Assembly: GCF_900086985.1 (NCBI RefSeq)
Contig: NZ_LT593974.1
Coordinates: 3,782,001 to 3,846,000, forward strand
Direction of reading: 5' to 3'
From: Halomonas sp. HL-93
Lineage (GTDB): Bacteria; Pseudomonadota; Gammaproteobacteria; Pseudomonadales; Halomonadaceae
Length of the DNA stretch: 64,000 nt
This document shows positions 11,443 through 56,133 of the stretch, piece by piece. A program made the position numbers and the translations under genes. The notes beneath the pieces are model-generated. The model searched no databases. It had not been told where the DNA came from and saw only the letters and a program-made list of their open reading frames with translations. Each line of letters opens with the position of its first letter. Positions within the stretch are counted from its first letter, which is position 1.

Positions 11443-12044
11443 GCCAGCTTCTCCTCGAATTTACGCAGGGCGGAGACGGTGACCAGGACCTTATCAAAGG
11501 CAACCAGGCTCACCGGGTCAGCAGCCGCAACGTCCACCACATCAACATGGGGAAGGTTGCGCGCGGCTAAATAGAGCTTTTCATCAACTTCTTCAGTGAC
11601 GATCAACACTTTTTCAAGGTTGAGCTCTTTCAGCTTGGCAGCGACCTGCTTGGTTTTCGGCGCTTCGACGTTGAACTCTTCAACCGCGACCAGGCGCTCT
11701 TGACGTACCAGCTCTGACAAGATGGAACGCATGGCAGCGCGATACATCTTGCGGTTCACCTTCTGGGTGTAGTCTTGCGGACGCGCCGCGAAGGTGACGC
11801 CGCCGCTACGCCATAGCGGAGAGCGGATAGTACCAGCACGAGCACGGCCAGTACCTTTCTGACGCCATGGCTTTTTACCACCACCACGAACGTCGGAACG
11901 GTTCTTTTGAGCGCGGGTGCCCTGACGACCACCAGCCAAATAGGCAGTGACGACCTGGTGAACCAGCGCTTCGTTGAATTCTTTGCCAAAGGTGGCGTCG
12001 GCTACTTCAACGGTACCCGCGCCTGCAGCAAGATTCAGATTCAT
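11439..12044 (-). CDS. rplD: 50S ribosomal protein L4
   Basis: This is a 201-residue protein, identical in length to E. coli L4. The tunnel-reaching loop ([28 protein letters not shown] region) is present. In E. coli L4 also represses its own operon by binding the S10 leader; the leader here is short, so the same mechanism may not apply. It overlaps rplW by 4 nt and is 15 nt after rplC. Confidence 0.99.
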
Positions 12045-12059
12045 TGGTAATTATCCCCT

Positions 12060-12698
12060 TCAGCCAGCTTTCACGGCGCTGCGAACGATAACGTCACTAC
12101 CGGTTGCACCCGGTACGGCGCCTTTAATCAGCAGCAGGTTACGCTCGGCGTCGACACGGACGATCTCTAGGCTCTGCACGGTGCAACGGGCGTTACCCAT
12201 TTGACCGGCCATCTTTTTGCCTTTGAAAACGCGACCCGGGGTCTGACACATACCGATAGAACCCGGCGCACGATGCGACAGAGAGTTACCGTGAGTCATG
12301 TCTTGGGTACGGAAATTCCAGCGCTTAACAGCACCCTGGAAGCCTTTACCCTTAGAGGTACCGGTCACGTCGATCATCTGACCAGCTTCGAAGAGGGATA
12401 CGGTGAGTTCGCCGCCAACTTCAGGAGCCTCCTCGCCATCTTCAAGGCGAAACTCCATCAGTGAACGACCAGCCTCAACACCTGCTTTAGCAAATTGACC
12501 CGCCTGGGCTTTGCTGAGGTGCTTGGCCTTACGAGAGCCAGTTGTTACCTGAACCGCTGCGTAGCCGTCAGACTCGACAGACTTAACGCGTGTAACACGG
12601 TTAGGATCAACTTCAATAACGGTTACGGGCACGGATGCGCCGTCTTCGGTAAAGACACGAGTCATCCCGGCCTTTTTACCGACTAAACCGATAGTCAT
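12060..12698 (-). CDS. rplC: 50S ribosomal protein L3
   Basis: Started at the ATG at 12698 the product is 212 residues ([20 protein letters not shown]...). The ORF extends 11 codons further upstream, but an AGGAGA ribosome binding site lies 8 nt before 12698 and the start matches the family. The conserved L3 loop near the peptidyl transferase centre ([19 protein letters not shown]) and the glutamine methylated by PrmB ([30 protein letters not shown] region) are present. The gap from rpsJ is unusually long at 151 nt. Confidence 0.98.
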
Positions 12699-45301: not shown

Positions 45302-45359
45302 TATACAAAACTATTACAAAACGAGCTTCTTGTACATCAATATACGTCAGTCCTGTACG
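45302..45359. promoter_or_regulatory. Candidate LitR/CarH-type operator upstream of the FAD oxidoreductase
   Basis: Two adjacent 11-nt near-repeats (TATACAAAACT, ATTACAAAACG at 45302-45323) are followed by TTGTACA (45330-45336), TATACG (45341-45346) and CTGTACG (45353-45359). CarH-type MerR regulators bind tandem 11-bp repeats containing TnnACA, so this array is a plausible operator in the divergent region. The start codon of the downstream gene is only 20 nt away. Confidence 0.45.
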
Positions 45360-45378
45360 CCACATTGGGAAAACAGCC

Positions 45379-46440
45379 TTGAGACGCGATCATGACAGCA
45401 GCACCGTTGCCACGCCTTTTAACGTCGCTATTGTAGGCGCCGGCATCGCAGGGCTGGCCTGTGCCAATGCGCTGGCAGAGCAGGGCGTGGCGGTGACGCT
45501 GTTTGATAAAGCACGAGGCCCCGGCGGGCGGATGTCCACCAAGCGTCTTGAACAGGCCGATATAGATTTAGGCGCCCAGGCGTTCACCGCACGCGACCCG
45601 GCCTTCCAAAAAGCGCTGGCCTCCTGGATCGCTTTGGGACACGCCTCCCGCTGGCCGAACGTCAGCTATCAGGCTAGTCCAAACGGCTGGCAGCTGCATC
45701 ATGATTCCCAGCCTCGTTATACCGGTGCGCCCAAGATGAGCGCCCTTACTCGCCACCTAGCGAATACTTTTCAGACGCATCCTCGCAGCACGTTGCACTT
45801 TGCGATCCGCATTGAGCAGTTAAAACGTTTGCGCAACGGCTGGCAGCTCGTCGATACGCAGCGACGTTGGTCTGGGCCATATCAGCATGTTGTATTGACC
45901 ACCCCACCGCCGCAGACATTGCCGCTGGTGACCCCCTGGGATGGCGCGCTAACCGAAGCCTGCCACGCGCGTCCGCAACGCAGCTGCTGGGCAGCCTGGG
46001 CGATACTGGACGGGCCACTGCCGTTGCCGCCCGGTGGTGAGCACGGCTGGCAAATGGCCCACGTCGATCATCCTGCGCTGCGCCTGGTCTCACGCAACCA
46101 GACAAAACCGGGGCGCGAACATCAGCCCGAAAGTCTCAGTTTGATGGCGCATCTAGACTGGAGCGACAGCCACCTGGAAGATGACCCACAATCAATTGCC
46201 GACGCATTGTGGGCCGCCTTTAGATCACTTTTTCCTGCCGACACCACACTCCCCAAACGCATTGCCAGTGGTGCTCATCGTTGGCGATATGCCCAGCCAA
46301 GCACTGCCGATGACCAGCTATACCTATACAGCAACAGTGGCTTGGCGCTGTGCGGCGATAGCTTTACCCACAGCCGCGTGGAGTCGGCGTGGCGCTCAGG
46401 AACGTATCTAGCTCAAGCGCTAGTAGATCGGTCGGTCTGA
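45379..46440 (+). CDS. FAD-dependent oxidoreductase (renalase-like amine oxidase family)
   Basis: This is a 353-residue protein with the dinucleotide-binding GAGIAGLACANALAEQGVAV and the second glycine motif KARGPGGRMSTKR, a hallmark of renalase-like FAD enzymes often found near photolyase genes. The C-terminal LALCGDSFTHSRVESAWRSG closes the FAD site. The only usable start is TTG at 45379, preceded by GGGA. The enzyme reaction is unknown. A gap of 215 nt with TTGTAC motifs separates it from the MerR-type gene. Confidence 0.85.
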   Translation: MRRDHDSSTVATPFNVAIVGAGIAGLACANALAEQGVAVTLFDKARGPGGRMSTKRLEQADIDLGAQAFTARDPAFQKALASWIALGHASRWPNVSYQASPNGWQLHHDSQPRYTGAPKMSALTRHLANTFQTHPRSTLHFAIRIEQLKRLRNGWQLVDTQRRWSGPYQHVVLTTPPPQTLPLVTPWDGALTEACHARPQRSCWAAWAILDGPLPLPPGGEHGWQMAHVDHPALRLVSRNQTKPGREHQPESLSLMAHLDWSDSHLEDDPQSIADALWAAFRSLFPADTTLPKRIASGAHRWRYAQPSTADDQLYLYSNSGLALCGDSFTHSRVESAWRSGTYLAQALVDRSV

Positions 46441-46477
46441 GCGGGTCGCACATCAGCATGACGAATGCGCTGGATGC

Positions 46478-46510
46478 AAAGGTTGTACCTTTGGGCAACA
46501 AGTTGTACAA
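46478..46510. promoter_or_regulatory. Candidate operator upstream of the MerR/LitR-like gene
   Basis: AAAGGT-TGT-ACCTTT (46478-46492) is a perfect 6-bp-arm inverted repeat containing TTGTACC. Twenty nt downstream of that motif lies TTGTACAA (46503-46510), a perfect palindrome. The same TTGTAC element occurs upstream of the FAD oxidoreductase. Autoregulation by the downstream regulator is inferred. Confidence 0.45.
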
Positions 46511-46566
46511 AGGAACGTTAGTTATTCAAGATTGTTGATCAGTTAATTAGATATTAGGAAATTGCT

Positions 46567-46659
46567 ATGGATAGCAAACCATATCGCCCGCCGCAGCAAC
46601 CCACGATAGGCCCATGCGGCTTGGCTCCGCATACAACTAAGAGGCACTGGCGCCCATGA
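46567..46659 (+). CDS. Possible 30-residue leader peptide overlapping the regulator gene
   Basis: A 30-codon frame begins at ATG 46567 with an AGGA site about 9 nt upstream. It encodes MDSKPYRPPQQPTIGPCGLA and a further ten residues, and ends in a TGA that overlaps the ATG of the MerR-type gene (ATGA). The regulator itself has only a distant AAGAGG site, so translation through this small frame could feed its start. No family is recognised, and it may be chance. Confidence 0.3.
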   Translation: MDSKPYRPPQQPTIGPCGLAPHTTKRHWRP

Positions 46660-47576
46660 GCAATAAGGCGACCCACCCACCCGATACGCCCCTTTATCCG
46701 ATTCGGGAAGTTTCCCGCCTGACGGGTGTCAACTCAGTTACCTTGCGCGCTTGGGAGCGACGTTACGGGTTAATTCGCCCCCAACGCACGCCTAAAGGGC
46801 ACCGGCTATACGCACAGGATGACATCACACGCATTGAGCGTATTTTGCAGTGGCTCAACCGCGGCGTGCCGGTTAGCCAAGTGGCCGACCTGCTTGATCA
46901 GCCCGACACCGTGGATACCCCCGTTCCGGATGCCGGCGATTGGGTCAGCCAGCGCCAACAATTACAGGCGATAATCGAAGCGCTCGACTTGCCCAAGCTT
47001 GAAGCGTTCTATCACCAAAGCCTGGCGCTTTACCCATTGAGCACGGCCATTAACGAACTTTGGCAGCCGGTCGTGCTAACGCTGGAAGCTAAATGGGCGG
47101 CAGAGCCCGATGCCCTGGTCCGCCGTACCTTTGAAGCGTTTCTGCGCAGCCAAGTCGGCATCCGCCTGCATTATGCTAACCAAGCCACCCGCGGCCCGTT
47201 AATTCTGCTCAATGTCATGCCAGACGACCCAGGGCCGCTTTGGGTGTTGATGGCGGCGCTCATGGCCAGCGAGCAAGGCTACCGTGTGCAGCTTCTGGAT
47301 CATTCACTACCGCTTGAAGATCTTCCCCAGGCCGTTGCGCGGCTACACTCGTCAATGGTTTTACTATCCAGCGGCCAGCGGGAAGACGATCACTATATCC
47401 GCCAGGCACTGCCCGATGCCGCAGCAGCGCTGAACGTGCCCATTGGGGTGTGCGGCGAGGTCGCAAGGCTACGCGACGCCGACCTGCGCGGCACCCCGGT
47501 CCACATGCTGGGCGATGATTTGCCCCAAGCGATCGCCCGCTTGCGGCCGTTATTACGCGAATCAGGCGTGCTTTGA
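46656..47576 (+). CDS. MerR-family regulator of the LitR/CarH type lacking cobalamin ligands
   Basis: This is a 306-residue protein. Residues 14-80 form a MerR winged helix (IREVSRLTGVNSVTLRAWER). Residues 100-175 align with the four-helix cobalamin-binding-2 domain, and residues 178-300 with a Rossmann B12-binding domain. The CarH motif W-x9-E-H is here W147-x9-R157-T158, and the E-x-H-x-x-G motif is D191-P-G193-P-L-W196. Both cobalt-ligand histidines are therefore absent by my alignment. Such B12-free LitR homologues in Pseudomonas take their light signal from a separate LOV protein. It precedes the photolyase by 68 nt and likely controls the cluster. Confidence 0.85.
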   Translation: MSNKATHPPDTPLYPIREVSRLTGVNSVTLRAWERRYGLIRPQRTPKGHRLYAQDDITRIERILQWLNRGVPVSQVADLLDQPDTVDTPVPDAGDWVSQRQQLQAIIEALDLPKLEAFYHQSLALYPLSTAINELWQPVVLTLEAKWAAEPDALVRRTFEAFLRSQVGIRLHYANQATRGPLILLNVMPDDPGPLWVLMAALMASEQGYRVQLLDHSLPLEDLPQAVARLHSSMVLLSSGQREDDHYIRQALPDAAAALNVPIGVCGEVARLRDADLRGTPVHMLGDDLPQAIARLRPLLRESGVL

Positions 47577-47592
47577 TAAAACCACCCTGACA

Positions 47593-47610
47593 CCACCGCT
47601 GCGGCGGTGG
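47593..47610 (+). other. GC hairpin between the regulator and photolyase genes
   Basis: CCACCGC / GCGGTGG is a perfect 7-bp stem with a TGCG loop, 17 nt after the regulator stop codon and 35 nt before phr. No T-run follows, so transcription probably continues into phr with possible attenuation. Confidence 0.4.
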
Positions 47611-47644
47611 CCATCCGCTTGTTAATCGCCCCGCAGGAGTGCCC

Positions 47645-49057
47645 ATGTCACGACAGTTGGTTTGGCTGCGCAGCGACCTGCGTATCTACGATAACACCGC
47701 GCTGGCTGCCGCCGCGGCGAAAGGGCCGGTAGTCGCCGTATTTCTTCGCTCGGTTGCCCAATGGCAGGCACATGGCCACGGCATCAATAAGATCGACTTT
47801 TGGATGCGTAGCGTCACTGCCCTGAAAGAGGCGCTAGATGGCCTCAATATTCCGCTACTGCACCGCGATATCGATTCTTTTGACGACGCCCCCGCCGCCT
47901 TGCTGGACGTTGCCCGCGAGCATCAAATTGAGCAGTTGCACTTCAATCATGAGTATCCGCTTAATGAACAGCGGCGCGACGCAGCGGTACTTGACGCATG
48001 TAAGCAAGCAGGGATGGCCGCACACGGCTACCATGATGCAGTCGCCTTTGCGCCGGGAACGCTACTGACCGGCAAGGGCGATTATTACGGCGTGTTCACA
48101 CCGTTTGCCAAGGCTTGGCACAAGCAGATCACCCAAGAGCAATTGGCGATACGCGACACACCAGAGGCCCAATCGCCACTGGATATACTAAGCGACCCGC
48201 TGCCCGCACTGCCTGAGTTCGGCGAATCTGCCATTGACGGTCATCAATGGCCCGCGGGCGAGCAGGCTGCCAGTGACCGTCTGGAACGGTTTTTACGCTT
48301 CCGCGGACGCCACTACAACGATCAGCGGGATGTCCCCAAGGTGCGTGGCACCAGCGAGCTTTCACCCTACTTGGCGCTGGGGGTGATGTCCTACCGCCAA
48401 TGTATGCAAGCCGTTATGAGTGAGAATGGCGGGCACTTAGCCGATGGCGATAAGGGGTTAACTACCTGGGTGAGTGAACTTATCTGGCGGGAGTTTTATC
48501 AGCACGTTGCGGTAGGCTTTCCACAGGTTTGCCGCTACCAGCCGTTTCAATCATATACACAACAGCTCGTCTGGCGCGATGACGAAGAAGGCTTTCAAGC
48601 CTGGTGCGAAGGGCGCACCGGCTATCCACTGGTCGACGCTGCCATGCGCCAGTTGGTCACTACCGGCTGGATGCACAATCGCCTGCGTATGGTGACAGCG
48701 ATGTTTTTAAGCAAGCACTTGCTGATCGACTGGCGCCGCGGTGAAGCGTTTTTCCTGCGCCACCTGGTAGACGGCGAGTTTTGCGCCAACAACGGCGGCT
48801 GGCAATGGGCCGCCTCCACTGGCACCGACGCGGCGCCGTATTTTCGCATTTTCAACCCCACCACCCAATCCTCGCGTTTCGACCCGGACGGCGAGTTTAT
48901 TGCTCACTGGTTACCCGAACTTGCCATCTTGCCAGCCAAGGCTCGCCATGCACCCCCTCGCGATTTACTTACCCAACTGGACTATCCTGCCCCGATAGTT
49001 GATCACAAAGCGGCGCGTCAGCGGGCGCTGGATGCTTTTAAGGCGCTGTCGAACTGA
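47645..49057 (+). CDS. phrB: Deoxyribodipyrimidine photolyase (class I CPD type)
   Basis: Photolyase uses blue light and FADH to split cyclobutane pyrimidine dimers. The 470-residue protein (E. coli 472) has the N-terminal antenna domain (LVWLRSDLRIYDNTAL) and the C-terminal FAD domain with RGTSELSPYLALGVMS, ELIWREFYQH, and the signature WQWAASTGTDAAPYFRIFNP. The start at 47645 has an AGGAG site; a GTG two codons earlier is less likely. It lies between the light-type regulator and the lipid-modification genes. Confidence 0.95.
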   Translation: MSRQLVWLRSDLRIYDNTALAAAAAKGPVVAVFLRSVAQWQAHGHGINKIDFWMRSVTALKEALDGLNIPLLHRDIDSFDDAPAALLDVAREHQIEQLHFNHEYPLNEQRRDAAVLDACKQAGMAAHGYHDAVAFAPGTLLTGKGDYYGVFTPFAKAWHKQITQEQLAIRDTPEAQSPLDILSDPLPALPEFGESAIDGHQWPAGEQAASDRLERFLRFRGRHYNDQRDVPKVRGTSELSPYLALGVMSYRQCMQAVMSENGGHLADGDKGLTTWVSELIWREFYQHVAVGFPQVCRYQPFQSYTQQLVWRDDEEGFQAWCEGRTGYPLVDAAMRQLVTTGWMHNRLRMVTAMFLSKHLLIDWRRGEAFFLRHLVDGEFCANNGGWQWAASTGTDAAPYFRIFNPTTQSSRFDPDGEFIAHWLPELAILPAKARHAPPRDLLTQLDYPAPIVDHKAARQRALDAFKALSN

Positions 49058-49102
49058 CGCAGCGTTAACCACTTACCTGCCTAATCGTTCTCGGGAGTCG
49101 TC

Positions 49103-49534
49103 ATGTCACAGGACAAGGCACTAGAAAATTTTTGCGCCTTTTTTAATAAACTAGACAATACCTGTACAGAAAAGCTATACGAGGTATATACTGAGGACAT
49201 TGTTTTCAGTGACCCGCTGCATCGCATTGAGGGACAGCGTGCGCTTCAGCGCTATTTTGCGGCGATGTACGAAAACGTCGAGCACTGCCAATTTGTTTAT
49301 CACACGCGCCAGCGCCAAGGCAGCCAAGCGTTTGTTACCTGGACAATGACCTTTGCACATTCACGCTTGGCAGGCGGGCGTCCTATCGAGGTTGATGGCT
49401 GCAGTGCTTTAACGTTTGCCGACGATGGCCGTGTTTCACTGCATCGCGACTACTTCGATGCCGGCGCCATGCTGTATGAGCACCTGCCGCTGATGGGCCG
49501 CGTCATTCGTTGGTTAAAGCAGCGCCTAGATTAA
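49103..49534 (+). CDS. SnoaL-like / NTF2-fold protein
   Basis: This is a 143-residue protein of the NTF2-like superfamily (KLYEVYTEDIVFSDPLHRIE, ALTFADDGRVSLHRDYFDAG). Proteins of this type sit beside the SDR and flavin oxidase in photo-oxidative stress clusters of Pseudomonas and other proteobacteria. The catalytic role is unknown. It lies 45 nt after phr and 59 nt before the SDR gene. Confidence 0.85.
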   Translation: MSQDKALENFCAFFNKLDNTCTEKLYEVYTEDIVFSDPLHRIEGQRALQRYFAAMYENVEHCQFVYHTRQRQGSQAFVTWTMTFAHSRLAGGRPIEVDGCSALTFADDGRVSLHRDYFDAGAMLYEHLPLMGRVIRWLKQRLD

Positions 49535-49593
49535 CGATCCCCTTGCTTCGCACGCCTGATGTCGTGCCTGCAGGGCGCCACAGGAGAAGCACG

Positions 49594-50376
49594 ATGAGCA
49601 CATGGACGACGCCCCAGCGCATCTGGCTGACAGGGGCGACCTCTGGCATCGGAGAAGCACTGGCCAAAAAACTCATTGCCCAGGGCCACCAGGTGGTGCT
49701 TAGTGCTCGCAACCAGCAGGCACTGGACACCCTTTGCAACGGCCACCCTAATGCCTATCCACTGCCGCTTGATGTGAGCGACCGCCAGGCCGTACTGGCT
49801 GCGGGGGAGCAGATTGGTGAGCAGTTGGGCGCGCTTGACCTTGCCCTGTTTAACGCTGGCACTTGCGAATACCTGAATGCACAACAGTTTGATATGGACC
49901 TGATCGAGCGGGTGTTGACGCCCAACCTGTTCGGCACCCTGTATGGGGTGGAAGCCGCGCTACCTTTACTGCGATCGGCGCGCCGGGAAGGCAAACCCGC
50001 CCGGCTTGCCGCCACCTCAAGCGCTTCGGCCTACCTGCCACTGCCACGCGCCGAAGCCTATGGAGCCTCTAAAGCCGCCGTCAGCTACTTCCTGGAATCG
50101 CTGCGCCTTGACCTCGACCAGGAGGGCATTGATGTCAGCCTAATCCACCCTGGGTTCGTCAAAACCCCCTTAACTGAACGCAACGACTTTCCCATGCCCA
50201 TGCAGGTCAGCGCTGACGCCGCCGCCGACGCTATTATCGAAGGTTTGGTAAAGGGCCGGTTAGATATTCACTTTCCGCGACGATTTACCTACATCGTCAA
50301 GTTTTTGGGCATTTTACCGCCCGCCCTGCGCCGCCGAATTGGTCTGCGCATGACACGCAAGCAAGAGGCTTCTTGA
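49594..50376 (+). CDS. Short-chain dehydrogenase/reductase (classical SDR)
   Basis: This is a 260-residue SDR from the ATG at 49594 (AGGAGA upstream; the ORF extension into the previous gene is rejected). It has the cofactor motif TGATSGIGEALAKK, NAG in LFNAGTCEY, the catalytic serine in ATSSASAYLPL, and the catalytic pair in YGASKAA. It presumably reduces or oxidises a lipid-linked or small carbonyl with NAD(P)H. Its stop codon overlaps the next gene start by one base (TGATG). Confidence 0.9.
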   Translation: MSTWTTPQRIWLTGATSGIGEALAKKLIAQGHQVVLSARNQQALDTLCNGHPNAYPLPLDVSDRQAVLAAGEQIGEQLGALDLALFNAGTCEYLNAQQFDMDLIERVLTPNLFGTLYGVEAALPLLRSARREGKPARLAATSSASAYLPLPRAEAYGASKAAVSYFLESLRLDLDQEGIDVSLIHPGFVKTPLTERNDFPMPMQVSADAAADAIIEGLVKGRLDIHFPRRFTYIVKFLGILPPALRRRIGLRMTRKQEAS

Positions 50377-51725
50377 TGAGTAACGCGGCGTCTCAGCGCA
50401 TCGCCATTATCGGCAGCGGCATCAGCGGCATGGCGGCCGGGTGGTATCTCTCTGCCCAGCACGAGGTCACGCTGTTCGAAGCCAACGCACGGCTGGGCGG
50501 ACACACCGCGACCATGGATATCGAGGTTGCCGGTAACGCTTACGCCATCGACACCGGCTTTATCGTTTTCAACGATTGGACCTATCCACACTTTCAGAGC
50601 CTGCTGGAGTCGCTCGGCGTGCCCAGTCAAGCCACCGAAATGAGCTTTTCGGTGCATGAAACCAGCGTGGATTTCGAATACAACGGGCATACCTTGACCT
50701 CGCTGTTCGCCCAGCGGCGCAACGTGCTCAACCCTGCCTTTTACCGCCTGCTTGCCGATATCATGCGCTTCAACAAGCAAGCGACGCGTGACTTGGAGAA
50801 CGAGCGTCTGCCCAAGGACATGACCCTTGGAGACTACCTGGACCGTCACGGTTATGGTCAGACCTTCCAGCGACGCTACCTGCTGCCCATGGGAGCCGCC
50901 ATCTGGTCGGCAAGCATAGGTGACTTGCGCGCCTTTCCGCTGACCTTTTTTGTACGCTTTTTCCGCAATCATGGCCTGCTATCGGTTAACCATCGGCCGC
51001 AGTGGTACACCCTGGTGGGTGGCTCGCGCCGCTATATCCCAGCACTCACCGCGCCTTATGCCGATCGCATTCATCTCAATACGCCGGTTACCCGGATAGA
51101 GCGCCACGCCACAGGGGTTATGCTCACGACGCCTGAAGGCACCCAGCGTTTTGATCACGTAGTACTGGCCTGCCATGCCGACCAGGCGCTAGCTATGCTC
51201 GGCGACGCCACGCCGATGGAAACCGAGATCCTAGGCGCGATGCCTTATCAGGATAACGAGGTGGTATTACACACTGACACCTCGTTGCTGCCGCGTCGCC
51301 GACGCGCCTGGGCCAGTTGGAACTACCGCCTTGATGGCCGCGGTGCCAATGAGCGGGTGTCGGTGACCTACAACATGAATATTCTCCAGCGGCTGGAAAG
51401 CGACACCACGTTCTGTGTCACGCTAAACGACTCACAGAACATCGACCCGGCCAAGATCCTGGGTCGCTACACCTACGCCCACCCGCAGTTCACCCTGGCC
51501 GGGCAGGCCGCACAACAGCGCCACGCCGAGATTTCATCACCCACCCGACGCACGCACTTTTGCGGGGCTTACTGGCGCAACGGTTTTCATGAAGACGGGG
51601 TGTGGAGCGCGCTGCGCGTTGCCCGTTCACTGGGTTGCGATGAAGCACAAAGCCCCCCCAGCGCGCCCACGGCCCTTCCCACCACGGAACTGTTTGATGC
51701 CTATCAAGGGAGTGACGCGGGATGA
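50376..51725 (+). CDS. FAD-dependent amine oxidase-like protein of the DUF1365/Cfa cluster
   Basis: This 449-residue protein begins with an FAD-binding motif (IIGSGISGMAAGWYLSAQ) and the glycine motif EANARLGGHTATM. Conserved regions include IDTGFIVFNDWTYPHF and, near the end, THFCGAYWRNGFHEDGVWSA. Homologues sit with a Cfa-like methyltransferase and DUF1365 in many proteobacteria and take part in oxidative modification of membrane fatty acids. It overlaps both neighbours (1 nt upstream, 4 nt downstream), so the genes form one operon. Confidence 0.9.
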   Translation: MSNAASQRIAIIGSGISGMAAGWYLSAQHEVTLFEANARLGGHTATMDIEVAGNAYAIDTGFIVFNDWTYPHFQSLLESLGVPSQATEMSFSVHETSVDFEYNGHTLTSLFAQRRNVLNPAFYRLLADIMRFNKQATRDLENERLPKDMTLGDYLDRHGYGQTFQRRYLLPMGAAIWSASIGDLRAFPLTFFVRFFRNHGLLSVNHRPQWYTLVGGSRRYIPALTAPYADRIHLNTPVTRIERHATGVMLTTPEGTQRFDHVVLACHADQALAMLGDATPMETEILGAMPYQDNEVVLHTDTSLLPRRRRAWASWNYRLDGRGANERVSVTYNMNILQRLESDTTFCVTLNDSQNIDPAKILGRYTYAHPQFTLAGQAAQQRHAEISSPTRRTHFCGAYWRNGFHEDGVWSALRVARSLGCDEAQSPPSAPTALPTTELFDAYQGSDAG

Positions 51726-52486
51726 ACACAAGGCCCCATTCGCGTATCTATCGCGGCACGCTGCGCCACCGTCGTTTCACACCGCGCGCGCATGCGTTTA
51801 ATTACCAGTTGTGGATGGCCTGGTTGGATCTGGACGAACTGCCGGGGCTATTTGACCGTGTGCCAGGGTTTAGCGCGCGCGGCCCGGCCCTGGCTCGCTT
51901 TCGCCGCGAAGACTACCTCGGCCCCACTGATCGCCCGCTGGCCACCGCCGTACGCGAGGAGCTGACACGCCAATTGGGCAGCGCCCCCGAGGGTCGCATC
52001 TGCGTACTCACACAGTTGCGTACGCTGGGCGCCATGTTCAACCCACTGTCGATGTACTACGCCTACGACCGCGAAGGCCAGCTAGCGGCGGTACTCGGCG
52101 AAGTCACCAACATGCCCTGGCGAGAGCGCACCTGTTACGCCTGCCGTGTCGATGCGAAGCGCCATAGCCACCACGCAACTTTCGACAAAGCCATGCACGT
52201 CTCGCCGTTCAACCCCATGGACATGACCTATCGCTGGCGATTTAACACGCCGAGCGACCAGCTGTTACTGCACATGGAAAACTGGCAACACGGCCAACGC
52301 CATTTCGACGCCACTTTAACTCTGGAAGCAGCTCCCGCCACCCCCAAGGTGCTGTTAACGACGCTCATGCGCCAGCCATGGATAAGCCTGAAAACGGTTG
52401 CCGGCATTCATTTTGAGGCATTGCGGCTATGGCTGAAGCGCGTGCCCGTTTATAACCACCCCAAGCGCAAGGAGACCTCGAAATGA
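51722..52486 (+). CDS. DUF1365 family protein
   Basis: This is a 254-residue protein of the DUF1365 family: IYRGTLRHRRFTPRAHAFNY at the N-terminus, then LTQLRTLGAMFNPLSMYYAY and FDKAMHVSPFNPMDMTYRWR. The biochemical activity is not established, but the gene nearly always accompanies the flavin oxidase and Cfa-like genes. It overlaps both by 4 nt (ATGA at each side). Confidence 0.9.
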   Translation: MNTRPHSRIYRGTLRHRRFTPRAHAFNYQLWMAWLDLDELPGLFDRVPGFSARGPALARFRREDYLGPTDRPLATAVREELTRQLGSAPEGRICVLTQLRTLGAMFNPLSMYYAYDREGQLAAVLGEVTNMPWRERTCYACRVDAKRHSHHATFDKAMHVSPFNPMDMTYRWRFNTPSDQLLLHMENWQHGQRHFDATLTLEAAPATPKVLLTTLMRQPWISLKTVAGIHFEALRLWLKRVPVYNHPKRKETSK

Positions 52487-53751
52487 CGACCCTGCGTTCC
52501 ACGCCGCCTAATATTCAACCCGCACCCCAGGGCCGTCTTACTCGTTGGCTGAAAAAGCGCTTGATTGCTCAACTGGATGCATTTACCGGCGGCAACATCA
52601 CCTTGATCGAAGGCAACCAGTGCCATCACCTGGGTCAAGGCGGTGATCTGCATGTGACGGTGGTCATCCGCCATGCGCGGGCCTGGAAGCGACTGGCCTT
52701 TGGCGGCACCGTTGGCGCCGCCGAGTCGTACATGGACAACGACTGGGATGCCGATGATCTCGTCGCCCTGGTACGGCTATTTGCGGTTAATTTAGACCAG
52801 GTCAATGGCAATCTGGAGAATGGCAGTGCGCGCGCGACGCGCTGGTTGATGGGCTGGGCCTACCGCTTTCAGCGCAACAGCCTGACCGGCTCCAAACGCA
52901 ATATCGCCGCTCACTACGATATTGGCAACGACCTGTTTGCCACCTTTCTCGACCAGCACCACTGGATGTACTCCAGCGCCGTTTTCCCCTATCCGGACGC
53001 CAGCCTGGAAGAGGCCTCAACGTATAAACTCGACATCATGCTCGATAAACTCGACGTGCAATCCGAGCATCATTTGCTCGAAATTGGCACAGGCTGGGGC
53101 GGGCTTGCCATCCATGCGGCCAAAACCCGAGGCTGTCGGGTGACGACTACCACGATTTCCGAAGAACAATATGCCTACACCGCTAATCGTATTCAGGAAG
53201 AAGGACTGGAAGCGCAAATTACGCTGCTGAAGCAAGACTACCGCGAGCTAACCGGCCGTTTTGACCGGTTAATCTCCATTGAAATGATTGAAGCCGTTGG
53301 CCATCAATACCTCGATACCTACCTGCACAAAGTTGACAGCCTGCTGACCCATGACGGCCAGGCCATGCTCCAGGCAATCACCATTCGCGACCAGCGCTTT
53401 GAAGAAGCCAAACGCGATATGGATTTCATCAAACGCTATATTTTCCCTGGTGGTTTTTTACCTTCCCACCACGCCATTGCCAGCAGCTTGATGCGCAAGA
53501 CCTCGCTAAATATGGTGTCGCTGGATGAAATAGGCCAGCATTACGCCCGCACTCTGCGCGAATGGCGACACCGCTTCGAGGCCCACTTAGAGCATATTCA
53601 CACGCTGGGCTATGACGAGCGCTTTATTCGCATGTGGCGCTACTACCTCTGCTATTGCGAGGGTGGCTTCCTTGAGCGCTCAATCGGCACCTGCCACTTG
53701 CTGTTGGCCAAGCCAGCAGCCAAGCTGGTGCCCCTGACCGGAGCGCTGTAA
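52483..53751 (+). CDS. Cfa-like SAM-dependent fatty-acid methyltransferase (probably not a true cyclopropane synthase)
   Basis: This is a 422-residue protein of the cyclopropane-fatty-acyl-phospholipid synthase family. The SAM-binding site LLEIGTGWGGLAIHAA and the substrate region YIFPGGFLPSHHAIA are visible. By my alignment the residues that hold bicarbonate in E. coli Cfa are changed: Cys139 is Ser165 (MYSSAVF) and His266 is Gln297 (MLQAIT), while Glu239 is kept (Glu270). It may therefore methylate unsaturated lipids without ring closure, as proposed for enzymes in furan fatty acid pathways. It overlaps neighbours by 4 and 1 nt. Confidence 0.88.
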   Translation: MTTLRSTPPNIQPAPQGRLTRWLKKRLIAQLDAFTGGNITLIEGNQCHHLGQGGDLHVTVVIRHARAWKRLAFGGTVGAAESYMDNDWDADDLVALVRLFAVNLDQVNGNLENGSARATRWLMGWAYRFQRNSLTGSKRNIAAHYDIGNDLFATFLDQHHWMYSSAVFPYPDASLEEASTYKLDIMLDKLDVQSEHHLLEIGTGWGGLAIHAAKTRGCRVTTTTISEEQYAYTANRIQEEGLEAQITLLKQDYRELTGRFDRLISIEMIEAVGHQYLDTYLHKVDSLLTHDGQAMLQAITIRDQRFEEAKRDMDFIKRYIFPGGFLPSHHAIASSLMRKTSLNMVSLDEIGQHYARTLREWRHRFEAHLEHIHTLGYDERFIRMWRYYLCYCEGGFLERSIGTCHLLLAKPAAKLVPLTGAL

Positions 53752-54293
53752 TGCTCGCACGGCGGCGGGTAATAGCGGTGCTCGTCAATGCTTTGGGCTT
53801 TGAGGTGATCTGGACGCTGTGCGTACTAGGCGGTTCCTGGGTGGCGGCTATTGCCGGCAGCGCCTGGATCGCGTTGCATTTGAAGTACTTGGGTAAACCC
53901 GGAGAATGGCGTTTGGTAGCGGCCTTTGCCCTACTGGGACTGATAATCGACGGCGGCCTGAAACTGACGGGCGGACTGATGTTTGGTGATCGAACGCTGA
54001 TCGCCGGTCTGTTGCCGCTATGGCTGTGGATGCTGTGGCCGCTATTCGCCACTCTGGTGCATCATTCACTTGCGTGGCTATGGCGATGGCCCTGGCTGGC
54101 GGCGGCACTTGGTGCGCTGGGCGGGCCGCTTTCGTATTTTGCCGGTGCTGCTCTCACCGATGTCTCTTTAGCGCCTTGGCTGCTACCCGCTCAGGCGCTG
54201 ATATGGGCAACCCTTTGCCTCGCTGTGTGCCCCTATTATCGTCGCTGGCAACAACGCTATGCTGACGCCAGCGCGCCTAGGGCCCAGCTTTAG
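53751..54293 (+). CDS. DUF2878 family membrane protein
   Basis: This is a 180-residue, strongly hydrophobic protein with about five membrane helices (VLVNALGFEVIWTLCVLGGS, AFALLGLIIDGGLKLTGGLM, LPLWLWMLWPLFATLVHHSL and others). DUF2878 genes close similar clusters in Vibrio and Pseudomonas; no activity is known. It starts one base inside the previous stop (TAATG), and its last 17 nt overlap the convergent GGDEF/EAL gene. Confidence 0.82.
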   Translation: MLARRRVIAVLVNALGFEVIWTLCVLGGSWVAAIAGSAWIALHLKYLGKPGEWRLVAAFALLGLIIDGGLKLTGGLMFGDRTLIAGLLPLWLWMLWPLFATLVHHSLAWLWRWPWLAAALGALGGPLSYFAGAALTDVSLAPWLLPAQALIWATLCLAVCPYYRRWQQRYADASAPRAQL

Positions 54294-56133
54294 CCATGGC
54301 AGGCGCCTTTGACTGGGCCTTAGGCAGCAGACGCTGCTCGAGTTCGTGGGCGGGCACCGGGCGGGCAAAATAGAAGCCCTGTACCATATTGCAGCCGGCA
54401 TTGACCAAGAACTCGCACTGCTCCTTGGTTTCGACGCCCTCTGCCACAACCCCAAGTGACAGTCCTTTGGCCATTGATAGCACCGCCCTCACAATGGCGG
54501 CATCGGCTTGGTCGCCCGGCAGTTCACGAATGAAAGCACGATCAAGCTTTATCTTGTCCACCGGCAAGCGCTTTAAGTAGCCAAGCGACGAGTAACCTGT
54601 GCCAAAATCATCAATTGCGATAGCGTAACCTTGGGCGCGCAACGCTTTTAAGCGTGGCCCCATATCCCCTGCACGCTCATCTAATAAGACCGATTCGGTC
54701 AGTTCCAAGCCGATGTGCGCAGGCGTCAAGCGGTAGCGTTTCAGGCAGGTAGCCAGCAAGGTTTCAAGATCGCCCTGAAACAGCTGAAGCGCCGAGATAT
54801 TCACCCACATCGTTAACGTTGGCATTTCGCTATTGGCCCAATGCGCCTGCTGCGCACAGGCTTTTTCAATCACCCAACTGCCCAGCTCCGCCATCAAGCC
54901 ATGGCGCTCCGCCAGAGGAATGAACTCACCGGGGGATATCATGCCATCACGAGGATGCTGCCAGCGCAGCAAGGCTTCCATACCCAAGAGTTCACCGGTG
55001 CCGGGATGATGCTGGGTCTGGAAATACAGCTCAAGCTGGTCGCCCGAGACCAGTGCGGCGCGTAAATCGCTGACCAACGCCAGTTGGGGATTATCCTGTT
55101 TATCCAACGCGGGCCGAAAGCGCAGGCTGTGATTTCGCCCTAATCGTTTGGCGTTATACAGCGCCGACTCCAGGCGCTGAAACAGCACGCCCGAGTCGCG
55201 GCCATCCTCTGGTGCCCGGCAACTGCCGATCGTCAAGCCCAACCGCAGCGACTGCTCGTTTATCTCAAACGGGCTGCTCATGTGATCGCGCAGATTGACG
55301 ATCCATTTGTCGTGATCATCATAGGTGGTGGTGCGAATGACCATGAATTCATCGCCGCCCAAGCGGCCCACAACGCTGCCCGCCATGTGGCTGGTCAGCC
55401 GTTGAGCAAAGCGCGCCAGCAGGCGATCGCCCTGCTCAACGCCCATGCTGTCATTCACCGACTTAAGCCCGTCGATATCCACCAAGGCGATATCCAGGCT
55501 TTCCCCTGCGCGCAGTTGACGCAGGCGCGACTCCATCAGGTCGTGCAACCGGCGCCGGTTCGGCAAGCCGGTCAGCGGGTCTTCATAACCAATACGCCGC
55601 AGGTCACGTTCACGGGCTTTCTGTGCCGATATATCGGTAAATAAACTAATAAAGTGGGTTATTTTGCCACGCTTGTCGGTGACGGCGCGGACCTTAAGCC
55701 ATTCAGGATACTCATCGCCGTGCTTTCGCCGGTTCCACATCTCGCCTTCCCAGCGCCCGGTGCTTTTCAGGGTGCTCCAGTAGTGCTGGTAAAACGTTTT
55801 GTCGTGTCTCGGCGCGGCAAGCGTTTCGAGCTTACGTCCAACCATTTCATGACTTTCATAGCCGGTAATTTCGGTGAACGCAGGGTTCACAGCAATGACA
55901 CGGTTCTCCACGTCGCTGATGACTATTGCATCATTGGCGAGACCCATCGCATCCTGTGACAACCGAAGCCGGAGGCGTTGCTGACGAACCTGACGCCACG
56001 TATCCCACAGCCCGAACGTCACCATTGACGCCGCGACCATGCGCAAGGCGGCATCAGGAATCCAGATGCAAGCGGGCAGTGCGATCAACGCCGCCCAAAT
56101 CAATGGGCGATTAAGCGAAACGGATAGCCACAT
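54277..56133 (-). CDS. Membrane PAS-GGDEF-EAL cyclic di-GMP signalling protein
   Basis: This is a 618-residue protein. Two hydrophobic segments lie within residues 8-45, a PAS domain at about 60-170, GGDEF at about 183-340 (motif GRLGGDEF at 259-263, no RxxD inhibitory site before it), and EAL at about 360-610. The EAL domain has GMEALLRW, LELTES, DDFGTGYSSL, the lysine in VDKIKLDR, and GVVAEGVET, so phosphodiesterase activity is likely. The GGDEF part also looks intact. It ends 17 nt inside the convergent DUF2878 gene; the ribosome binding site is weak. Confidence 0.93.
   Translation of the reverse strand: MWLSVSLNRPLIWAALIALPACIWIPDAALRMVAASMVTFGLWDTWRQVRQQRLRLRLSQDAMGLANDAIVISDVENRVIAVNPAFTEITGYESHEMVGRKLETLAAPRHDKTFYQHYWSTLKSTGRWEGEMWNRRKHGDEYPEWLKVRAVTDKRGKITHFISLFTDISAQKARERDLRRIGYEDPLTGLPNRRRLHDLMESRLRQLRAGESLDIALVDIDGLKSVNDSMGVEQGDRLLARFAQRLTSHMAGSVVGRLGGDEFMVIRTTTYDDHDKWIVNLRDHMSSPFEINEQSLRLGLTIGSCRAPEDGRDSGVLFQRLESALYNAKRLGRNHSLRFRPALDKQDNPQLALVSDLRAALVSGDQLELYFQTQHHPGTGELLGMEALLRWQHPRDGMISPGEFIPLAERHGLMAELGSWVIEKACAQQAHWANSEMPTLTMWVNISALQLFQGDLETLLATCLKRYRLTPAHIGLELTESVLLDERAGDMGPRLKALRAQGYAIAIDDFGTGYSSLGYLKRLPVDKIKLDRAFIRELPGDQADAAIVRAVLSMAKGLSLGVVAEGVETKEQCEFLVNAGCNMVQGFYFARPVPAHELEQRLLPKAQSKAPAMAKAGP

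Follow-up and report, generated by a model that had tools for sequence, protein, structure and literature searches.

Genes and features of the cluster

The stretch of DNA that was analysed (the window) comprises 64,000 nucleotides (nt) of Halomonas sp. HL-93, positions 3,782,001-3,846,000 of a genome that consists of one contig of 4.14 Mb. The subject of this report is a cluster of nine genes in that window, which includes a MerR-type regulator of the LitR/CarH family, a DNA photolyase, and a predicted set of lipid-modifying enzymes. All nine genes lie in the same direction on the forward strand from 45379 to 54293, and each matched its named family in family profile searches, as an earlier sequence-only reading of the window had named them. 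Their order is renalase-like FAD oxidoreductase, LitR, PhrB, SnoaL-like protein, short-chain dehydrogenase (SDR), UfaD, UfaO (DUF1365), UfaM (Cfa-like), and DUF2878. The features, in window coordinates, are as follows.

45302..45336, forward strand: putative LitR operator region at the renalase promoter, TATACA-N5-ATTACA (45302-45318, second half degenerate) and TGTACA (45331-45336)
45379..46440, forward strand: bacterial renalase-like FAD oxidoreductase, start TTG (Pfam Amino_oxidase/NAD_binding_8; PDB 'Renalase' 4zcc and 3kkj)
46483..46510, forward strand: putative LitR operator/autoregulation site TTGTAC-N14-TTGTACAA (conserved pair upstream of litR)
46656..47576, forward strand: LitR, MerR-type regulator of the LitR/CarH family without the full B12 ligand set (PF13411, 9.9e-18; CarH 5c8d, E 5.7e-21)
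47645..49057, forward strand: PhrB, cyclobutane pyrimidine dimer (CPD) photolyase (NCBIfam NF007955, 559 bits against a cut-off of 506; PDB 1dnp, E 2.3e-128)
49103..49534, forward strand: SnoaL-like protein (PF12680, 7.7e-19)
49594..50376, forward strand: short-chain dehydrogenase (PF00106, 2.4e-38)
50376..51725, forward strand: UfaD, predicted FAD-dependent acyl desaturase (PF01593, 1e-25; UfaD-UfaO-UfaM order as in R. palustris RPA2571-2569, PMC7380195)
51722..52486, forward strand: UfaO, DUF1365, predicted furan-ring-forming enzyme (PF07103, 4e-78; named UfaO by gene order)
52483..53751, forward strand: UfaM, predicted Cfa-like S-adenosylmethionine-dependent cis-vaccenate methyltransferase (PF02353, 2.2e-80)
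53751..54293, forward strand: DUF2878 small protein (PF11086, 8.1e-26)

The gene junctions were read directly from the start and stop codons. Among the last five genes, as had been claimed, neighbours overlap, by 1, 4, 4, and 1 nt: the SDR stop (TGA, 50374-50376) shares a base with the UfaD start (ATG, 50376), UfaD/UfaO and UfaO/UfaM each overlap by 4 nt, and the UfaM stop (TAA, 53749-53751) shares a base with the DUF2878 start (ATG, 53751). Upstream of these the genes are separated by 68 nt (LitR-PhrB), 45 nt (PhrB-SnoaL), and 59 nt (SnoaL-SDR). The gap between the renalase-like gene and litR is 215 nt, and because it holds a conserved operator-like pair, the cluster probably forms two transcription units with two promoters. 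A scan for sigma-70 promoters and terminators gave no more matches than shuffled sequences.

Conservation was examined in named loci, which are the best 80 of 590 confirmed loci found with LitR as the query. The order LitR-PhrB-SnoaL-SDR-UfaD-UfaO-UfaM is kept in 30 of these 80 (15 Halomonadaceae, 14 Pseudomonas, and 1 Terasakiispira), and PhrB lies directly 3' of LitR in 61. Because of this conservation, the nine-gene block is not a chance collection.

The LitR regulator

The LitR-like MerR type proposed for the regulator was borne out by its matches to PF13411 and to the CarH structure 5c8d. The N-terminal MerR helix-turn-helix is present and is nearly invariant among 12 aligned family members. 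In an alignment with CarH over 250 residues, W131 is kept and E141, H142, and H177 are replaced by R, R, and G; we take these four positions of CarH to be the residues that contact adenosyl-B12 (AdoB12). Three of the four contacts expected of a class I LitR/CarH are thus lost, and judged by this alignment it would be unsafe to take LitR for the photosensor. The protein appears to act in the manner of class II LitRs, which falls short of proven membership of that class.

The closest named relatives among the best 80 of 590 are from a Halomonas metagenome-assembled genome (94%) and Vreelandella lutescens (89%), by which the organism is probably a Vreelandella. Only one close LitR is encoded in the genome, the next match being at 7.5e-7. 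Open frames of about 800 amino acids (aa) that suggested LitR-photolyase fusions were rejected, since all 20 translated loci have a stop at the end of LitR; the in-frame stops flagged in three genomes (G023, G163, and G187) are likewise natural LitR ends.

Operator-like sites

The pair TTGTAC-N14-TTGTAC precedes litR in the window and in each of the 29 closest loci of the genus (30 of 30), as well as in all 9 named close relatives that were compared; reversed controls had none. Two outlying members of the genus carry pairs spaced by N10 (G138) and N9 (G160) instead. N14 is thus present in 30 of the 32 genus loci examined and in 39 of 41 loci of the genus or its named close relatives, with the half-sites conserved. 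The litR site is the only exact match to the N14 pattern in the genome.

The operator published for class II LitRs is T(G/A)TACA-N12-TGTA(C/T)A. Of 24 further family loci picked by hand (the two outliers among them), 16 have this N12 pair upstream of litR, as do 11 of 21 named Halomonadaceae; reversed sequences had none. The pair also lies before RudS in 19 of 31 named loci, most of them from Pseudomonas, again with none in reversed controls. The family regions used in these comparisons (20 + 13) were picked by hand for diversity or oddity, and some surveyed genomes repeat named loci (G139 = L145, G022 = L185). The spacing varies among relatives as N14, N12 (in most other family loci with a pair), N10, and N9 (L111 and L112).

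Upstream of the renalase-like gene, an 11-bp repeat of the form T[GA]TAC[AGT]-N5-T[GA]TAC[AGT] was found in 35 of 47 Halomonadaceae loci (16/23, 2/6, 11/12, and 6/6; one more was cut off) and in none of the 24 remaining named loci (23 Pseudomonas and 1 Larsenimonas); 6 of those 24 carry the N12 pair in its place. The repeat was absent from reversed controls.

A genome-wide search for the N14 motif with up to 2 mismatches returned 3 forward and 4 reverse matches, against 7 and 6 in the control, and the sole site with 1 mismatch falls inside a 629-aa open reading frame (ORF) that reads like a helicase. From the genome-wide N12 and N14 scans no further member of a LitR regulon could be named.

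Short LOV, ChrR, and BLUF proteins in the genome

A genome search for rpoE-chrR and LOV genes, suggested by the sequence-only reading, located a stand-alone short LOV protein about 1.03 Mb from the cluster and no ChrR over the family cut-off. The short LOV protein is a 154-aa ORF with the motif DCRFLQ (G000:C1:2793929-2794366). Among its top PDB matches are chains labelled 'Sensory box protein' that stand alone (7r5n, 1.8e-59; 3sw1, 1.9e-54), of which 3sw1 is presumably PpSB1-LOV of P. putida, and it is related to the LOV protein that relieves LitR repression in Pseudomonas. A Pfam search returned PAS families and one sub-threshold match that looks like chance; the protein has the photoactive Cys and no effector domain, and by sequence it is the likely sensor. 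Two further proteins (L033 and L035, both with GRNCRFLQ) were read from their sequences as LOV-GGDEF-EAL proteins; these are alternative candidate sensors and possibly light-controlled cyclic-di-GMP enzymes.

No BLUF protein was found in the whole genome. The best ChrR-like match in the whole genome scored 37.2 bits against a cut-off of 124.5, which extends to the genome the earlier remark that a sigma/anti-sigma pair is absent locally. This match is a cupin-type ORF (L003), and no sigma factor was apparent among its listed neighbour ORFs, which were read by eye without a family-library search.

Repair and lipid enzymes

The renalase-like protein matched 4zcc (E 1.1e-51, residues 5-339 of 342) and 3kkj (E 1e-50); we take 4zcc to be a renalase from a bacterium. 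Bacterial renalase oxidises aberrant dihydro-NAD(P) isomers. The gene has no in-frame ATG: the ATG that is in frame in five close relatives (L045, L046, L047, L049, and L119) is one base off here, and the TTG at 45379 is the only start in frame. This could reflect an altered start or a young defect. PhrB scored above the NCBIfam equivalog cut-off and is classed as a class I CPD photolyase.

The trio of furan fatty acid genes that had been proposed was recovered as adjacent homologues of UfaD, UfaO, and UfaM. In Rhodobacter and Rhodopseudomonas these enzymes turn cis-vaccenoyl chains into a furan fatty acid (PMC7380195), and in Halomonas sp. YLGW01, where the three ufa genes lie in a row, UfaM made the first intermediate, 11-methyloctadec-12-enoate, when expressed in E. 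coli (PMC12089945). An alignment of the cluster UfaM from the window and 41 named loci showed that C139 of Cfa is replaced by S in 42 of 42 sequences and H266 by Q in 41 of 42. These positions are given in what we take to be E. coli Cfa numbering.

Gene content of Halomonadaceae genomes

One and the same set of 201 Halomonadaceae genomes was used for the LitR, LOV, DUF1365, and ChrR searches, and a later direct look covered a subset of nine. Gene-content tallies were counted by hand from the search tables, and linkage of LitR to the lipid module was checked in the fetched loci. The cut-offs (LitR E<=1e-32, LOV E<=1e-45) were chosen after the values had been seen, the LOV E-values having a gap between 1e-51 and 1e-32. 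With these cut-offs, 193 genomes have LitR, and 173 of them also have a LOV homologue; of the 8 that lack LitR, 1 has a LOV homologue (p 2.7e-6, genomes of the same genus being counted as if independent, though they are not); an earlier LitR cut-off of 1e-42 had given 173 of 188 and 1 of 13.

DUF1365 was found in 129 of the 201 genomes. ChrR over the cut-off was found in 6, all of one other genus, and all six have DUF1365 and lack a LOV homologue; ChrR and a LOV homologue never occur together. Among the 123 genomes with DUF1365 and no ChrR, 120 have a LOV homologue, the exceptions being G086 (77% complete), G115, and G139. Four of the 80 named loci (L153, L171, L179, and L184) carry a LOV gene together with LitR. 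In four LOV-less genomes the cluster has shrunk to LitR alone (L103 and L104) or to LitR-PhrB (L109 and L113).

In 6 of 6 ChrR loci rpoE-chrR lies divergently beside UfaD-UfaO-UfaM (families confirmed in L205, where a DUF6134 gene follows UfaM at 11803-12618). Five of the six ChrR genomes (not G028) have a LitR-family protein of 39-42% identity (E 6e-33 to 2e-41). An impression gained with the 1e-42 cut-off, that ChrR and LitR are mutually exclusive, was therefore rejected. In these five genomes LitR sits in a CbiX-RudS-LitR-PhrB group (L219-L223) apart from the lipid module, and the genome is without a LOV homologue. Likewise, a renalase-LitR-PhrB group lies apart from the lipid module in G002, G024, and G086. 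Since both sets of genomes have them apart, the repair group can occur separately from the lipid module.

In a tree of UfaD and UfaM built from the 66 loci with both genes, the six ChrR-linked modules are split from the other 60 with a support of 0.998; the ChrR-linked modules come from within the family only, since the loci were found with LitR. Among the 60, LitR is in the locus in 57 and neither regulator in 3. The tree points to two distant lineages of the lipid module, each with its own neighbouring regulator, divided among genera of the family. The sequence-only reading had the MerR protein standing in the place of the sigma/anti-sigma pair. This holds for the neighbour of the lipid module, which is LitR in most family loci seen and ChrR in six. 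It is not a simple swap, because the module lineages are distant and five of the six ChrR genomes keep a LitR-photolyase group elsewhere.

Proposed mechanism and alternatives

We consider it probable, from sequence and by analogy, that the cluster serves photoprotection and is induced by blue light, in the manner of pplR1/pmlR1 of Pseudomonas: repression by LitR would be lifted by the short LOV protein, and a furan fatty acid would be made. In the dark, LitR would bind the paired TGTACA-type sites seen at its own promoter and at that of the renalase-like gene, and would repress both units. Under blue light the short LOV protein would form a flavin-cysteine adduct, bind LitR, and lift the repression, as in P. 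mendocina. The derepressed cell would then make more LitR, CPD photolyase, UfaM, UfaD, and UfaO. UfaM would methylate, UfaD desaturate, and UfaO oxidise the cis-vaccenoyl chains of phospholipids, giving a furan fatty acid that quenches reactive oxygen. The renalase-like enzyme may meanwhile clear aberrant NAD(P)H isomers, a light-induced cofactor repair. No part would be played by sigmaE-ChrR in this organism.

Several observations weigh against this account. For this organism, light induction and the lipid product are predictions from sequence. No match to Pfam B12-binding_2 (PF02607) was found in LitR at 1e-3, and P. mendocina PmlR has this domain. The short LOV gene is unlinked to the cluster, and two more LOV-domain proteins are encoded in the genome. 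A LOV homologue is lacking in 20 of the 193 genomes with LitR, and two of the exceptions noted above (G115 and G139; L209 and L210) have the whole LitR-Ufa cluster. LOV homologues were counted without regard to their standing alone, and two of them, with open frames of 623 aa (G104) and 654 aa (G003), could be longer proteins; the dependence among genomes of one genus and the thresholds set afterwards also bear on the co-occurrence. The putative litR operator in the window is spaced by N14, which departs from the published N12; at the window's renalase promoter the full 11-bp pattern is unmatched, one of the two halves being degenerate. Of the 50 remaining named loci (Pseudomonas and others, in which the N12 pair sits before RudS), only 2 have it directly upstream of litR, and genome-wide it is no commoner than in the control (159 matches with up to 2 mismatches, against 162).

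The foremost alternative is that LitR itself senses light or reactive oxygen, through a bound cofactor or a redox change, and that LOV serves something else. The MerR regulator VCA0056 of Vibrio cholerae, which adjoins phr, has been proposed as a responder to reactive oxygen species (PMC5241685), and the LitR genomes that lack a LOV homologue include the five that have ChrR. The C-terminal part of LitR also gives a B12-binding-like match (PF02310), a weak one of 25.5 bits that is under the Pfam cut-off. Against these points stand the replacement of E141, H142, and H177 of CarH, the co-occurrence of LOV and LitR among the 201 genomes, and the LOV-LitR interaction demonstrated biochemically in P. 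mendocina (PMC9758184). On balance, direct sensing by LitR appears unlikely.

It is less likely still that the Cfa-like enzyme forms cyclopropane rings, as a cyclopropane synthase, and that the product of the cluster is a cyclopropane rather than a furan fatty acid. NCBIfam and Pfam place UfaM among the Cfa/CMAS enzymes, under the NCBIfam cut-offs, and overexpressed Halomonas ufaM gave cyclic fatty acids too (PMC12089945); the uniform loss of C139, the near-uniform loss of H266, the adjoining UfaD-UfaO partners, and the methylated intermediate obtained from Halomonas ufaM in the same report argue for the furan route. Finally, an answer to singlet oxygen through an unlinked sigmaE-ChrR is very improbable: similar Ufa genes belong to the sigmaE-ChrR core regulon (PMC6852236) and rpoE-chrR lies beside such a module in 6 of the 201 genomes, but the best ChrR-like match in this genome is under the cut-off and is the cupin-type ORF with no sigma factor apparent among its listed neighbours.

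Relation to known systems and significance

The kinship to a light-induced Pseudomonas gene set that had been noted from the sequence was upheld. The order LitR-PhrB-SnoaL-SDR-UfaD-UfaO-UfaM-DUF2878 is that of the pmlR1/pplR1 operon of P. mendocina and P. putida, kept up to UfaM in the 14 named Pseudomonas loci. Further likenesses are operator pairs of the TGTACA type, a genome-encoded short LOV, and a renalase-like gene upstream. Light raises the expression of the corresponding nine-gene unit of P. mendocina (about 25- to 33-fold for phrB and ufaM, 6- to 10-fold for pmlR1), and in that species a short LOV protein serves as blue-light anti-repressor of a LitR (PMC9758184). Because of the shared order, the cluster is of a kind already known from Pseudomonas; its member in Halomonadaceae is new. 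Among the papers listed in searches of an open-licence library, none dealt with this cluster in Halomonas, with a ChrR/LOV division, or with renalase and photolyase together, and none of use was listed on bacterial renalase.

The two groups also differ. In Pseudomonas, RudS, a tRNA 4-thiouridine desulfidase (PMC11417400), is immediately upstream of litR and the renalase-like gene is further up, whereas here the renalase-like gene is directly upstream with its own putative operator and RudS is absent, there being no DUF1722 match in the genome. Pseudomonas strains with pmlR1/pplR1 have two or three LitRs; here there is one close LitR, the LOV gene is unlinked, and the spacing is N14. Other Halomonadaceae loci have a short gene for a CbiX-type sirohydrochlorin chelatase near litR, at a distance of 1.5 kb or less in 28 of 134 scanned LitR loci (family checked with Pfam in L097 only); the window does not have it.

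The sigmaE-ChrR system of Rhodobacter sphaeroides (RSP1091-1087) shares homologues of UfaM, UfaD, and UfaO; there the regulator is ChrR and ufaM is located elsewhere, whereas here LitR takes that position and ufaM is inside the cluster. Halomonas sp. YLGW01, a related organism, has ufaD-ufaO-ufaM consecutively (PMC12089945), a likeness in gene order. The blue-light response of V. cholerae through VCA0056-phr and ChrR is similar in that a MerR gene adjoins a photolyase gene and a Cfa-like gene is light-induced. It differs in that two regulators coexist there, a situation shared by five of this family's six ChrR genomes, and in that the Cfa-like VC1122 is not beside the MerR gene.

As gene content, the short-LOV/LitR switch known from Pseudomonas is extended to the majority of the 201 Halomonadaceae genomes, and furan fatty acid genes exist without sigmaE-ChrR. 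Organisms making these lipids without ChrR would allow the roles of protectant and messenger to be told apart. In Rhodobacter, furan fatty acids are needed for the turnover of ChrR and have been proposed as a messenger (PMC6852236). A broader proposal is tentative, and we rate it at somewhat less than even: that within one family the lipid module is wired either to light (LitR beside it and LOV in the genome) or to singlet-oxygen damage (rpoE-chrR beside it), with the pathway of about 120 species running without ChrR and with renalase in the light regulon. If so, the LitR-LOV wiring would anticipate damage. The wider role of furan fatty acids would be protective and not signalling, since about 120 sampled species would run the pathway without the ChrR whose turnover these lipids are thought to trigger. 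In Halomonadaceae, light would in addition induce the repair of NAD(P)H isomers by renalase, under a differently built operator.

Flanking gene

A PAS-GGDEF-EAL phosphodiesterase gene (DibA-like; 54277-56133, reverse strand) converges on the DUF2878 gene, which it overlaps by 17 nt.

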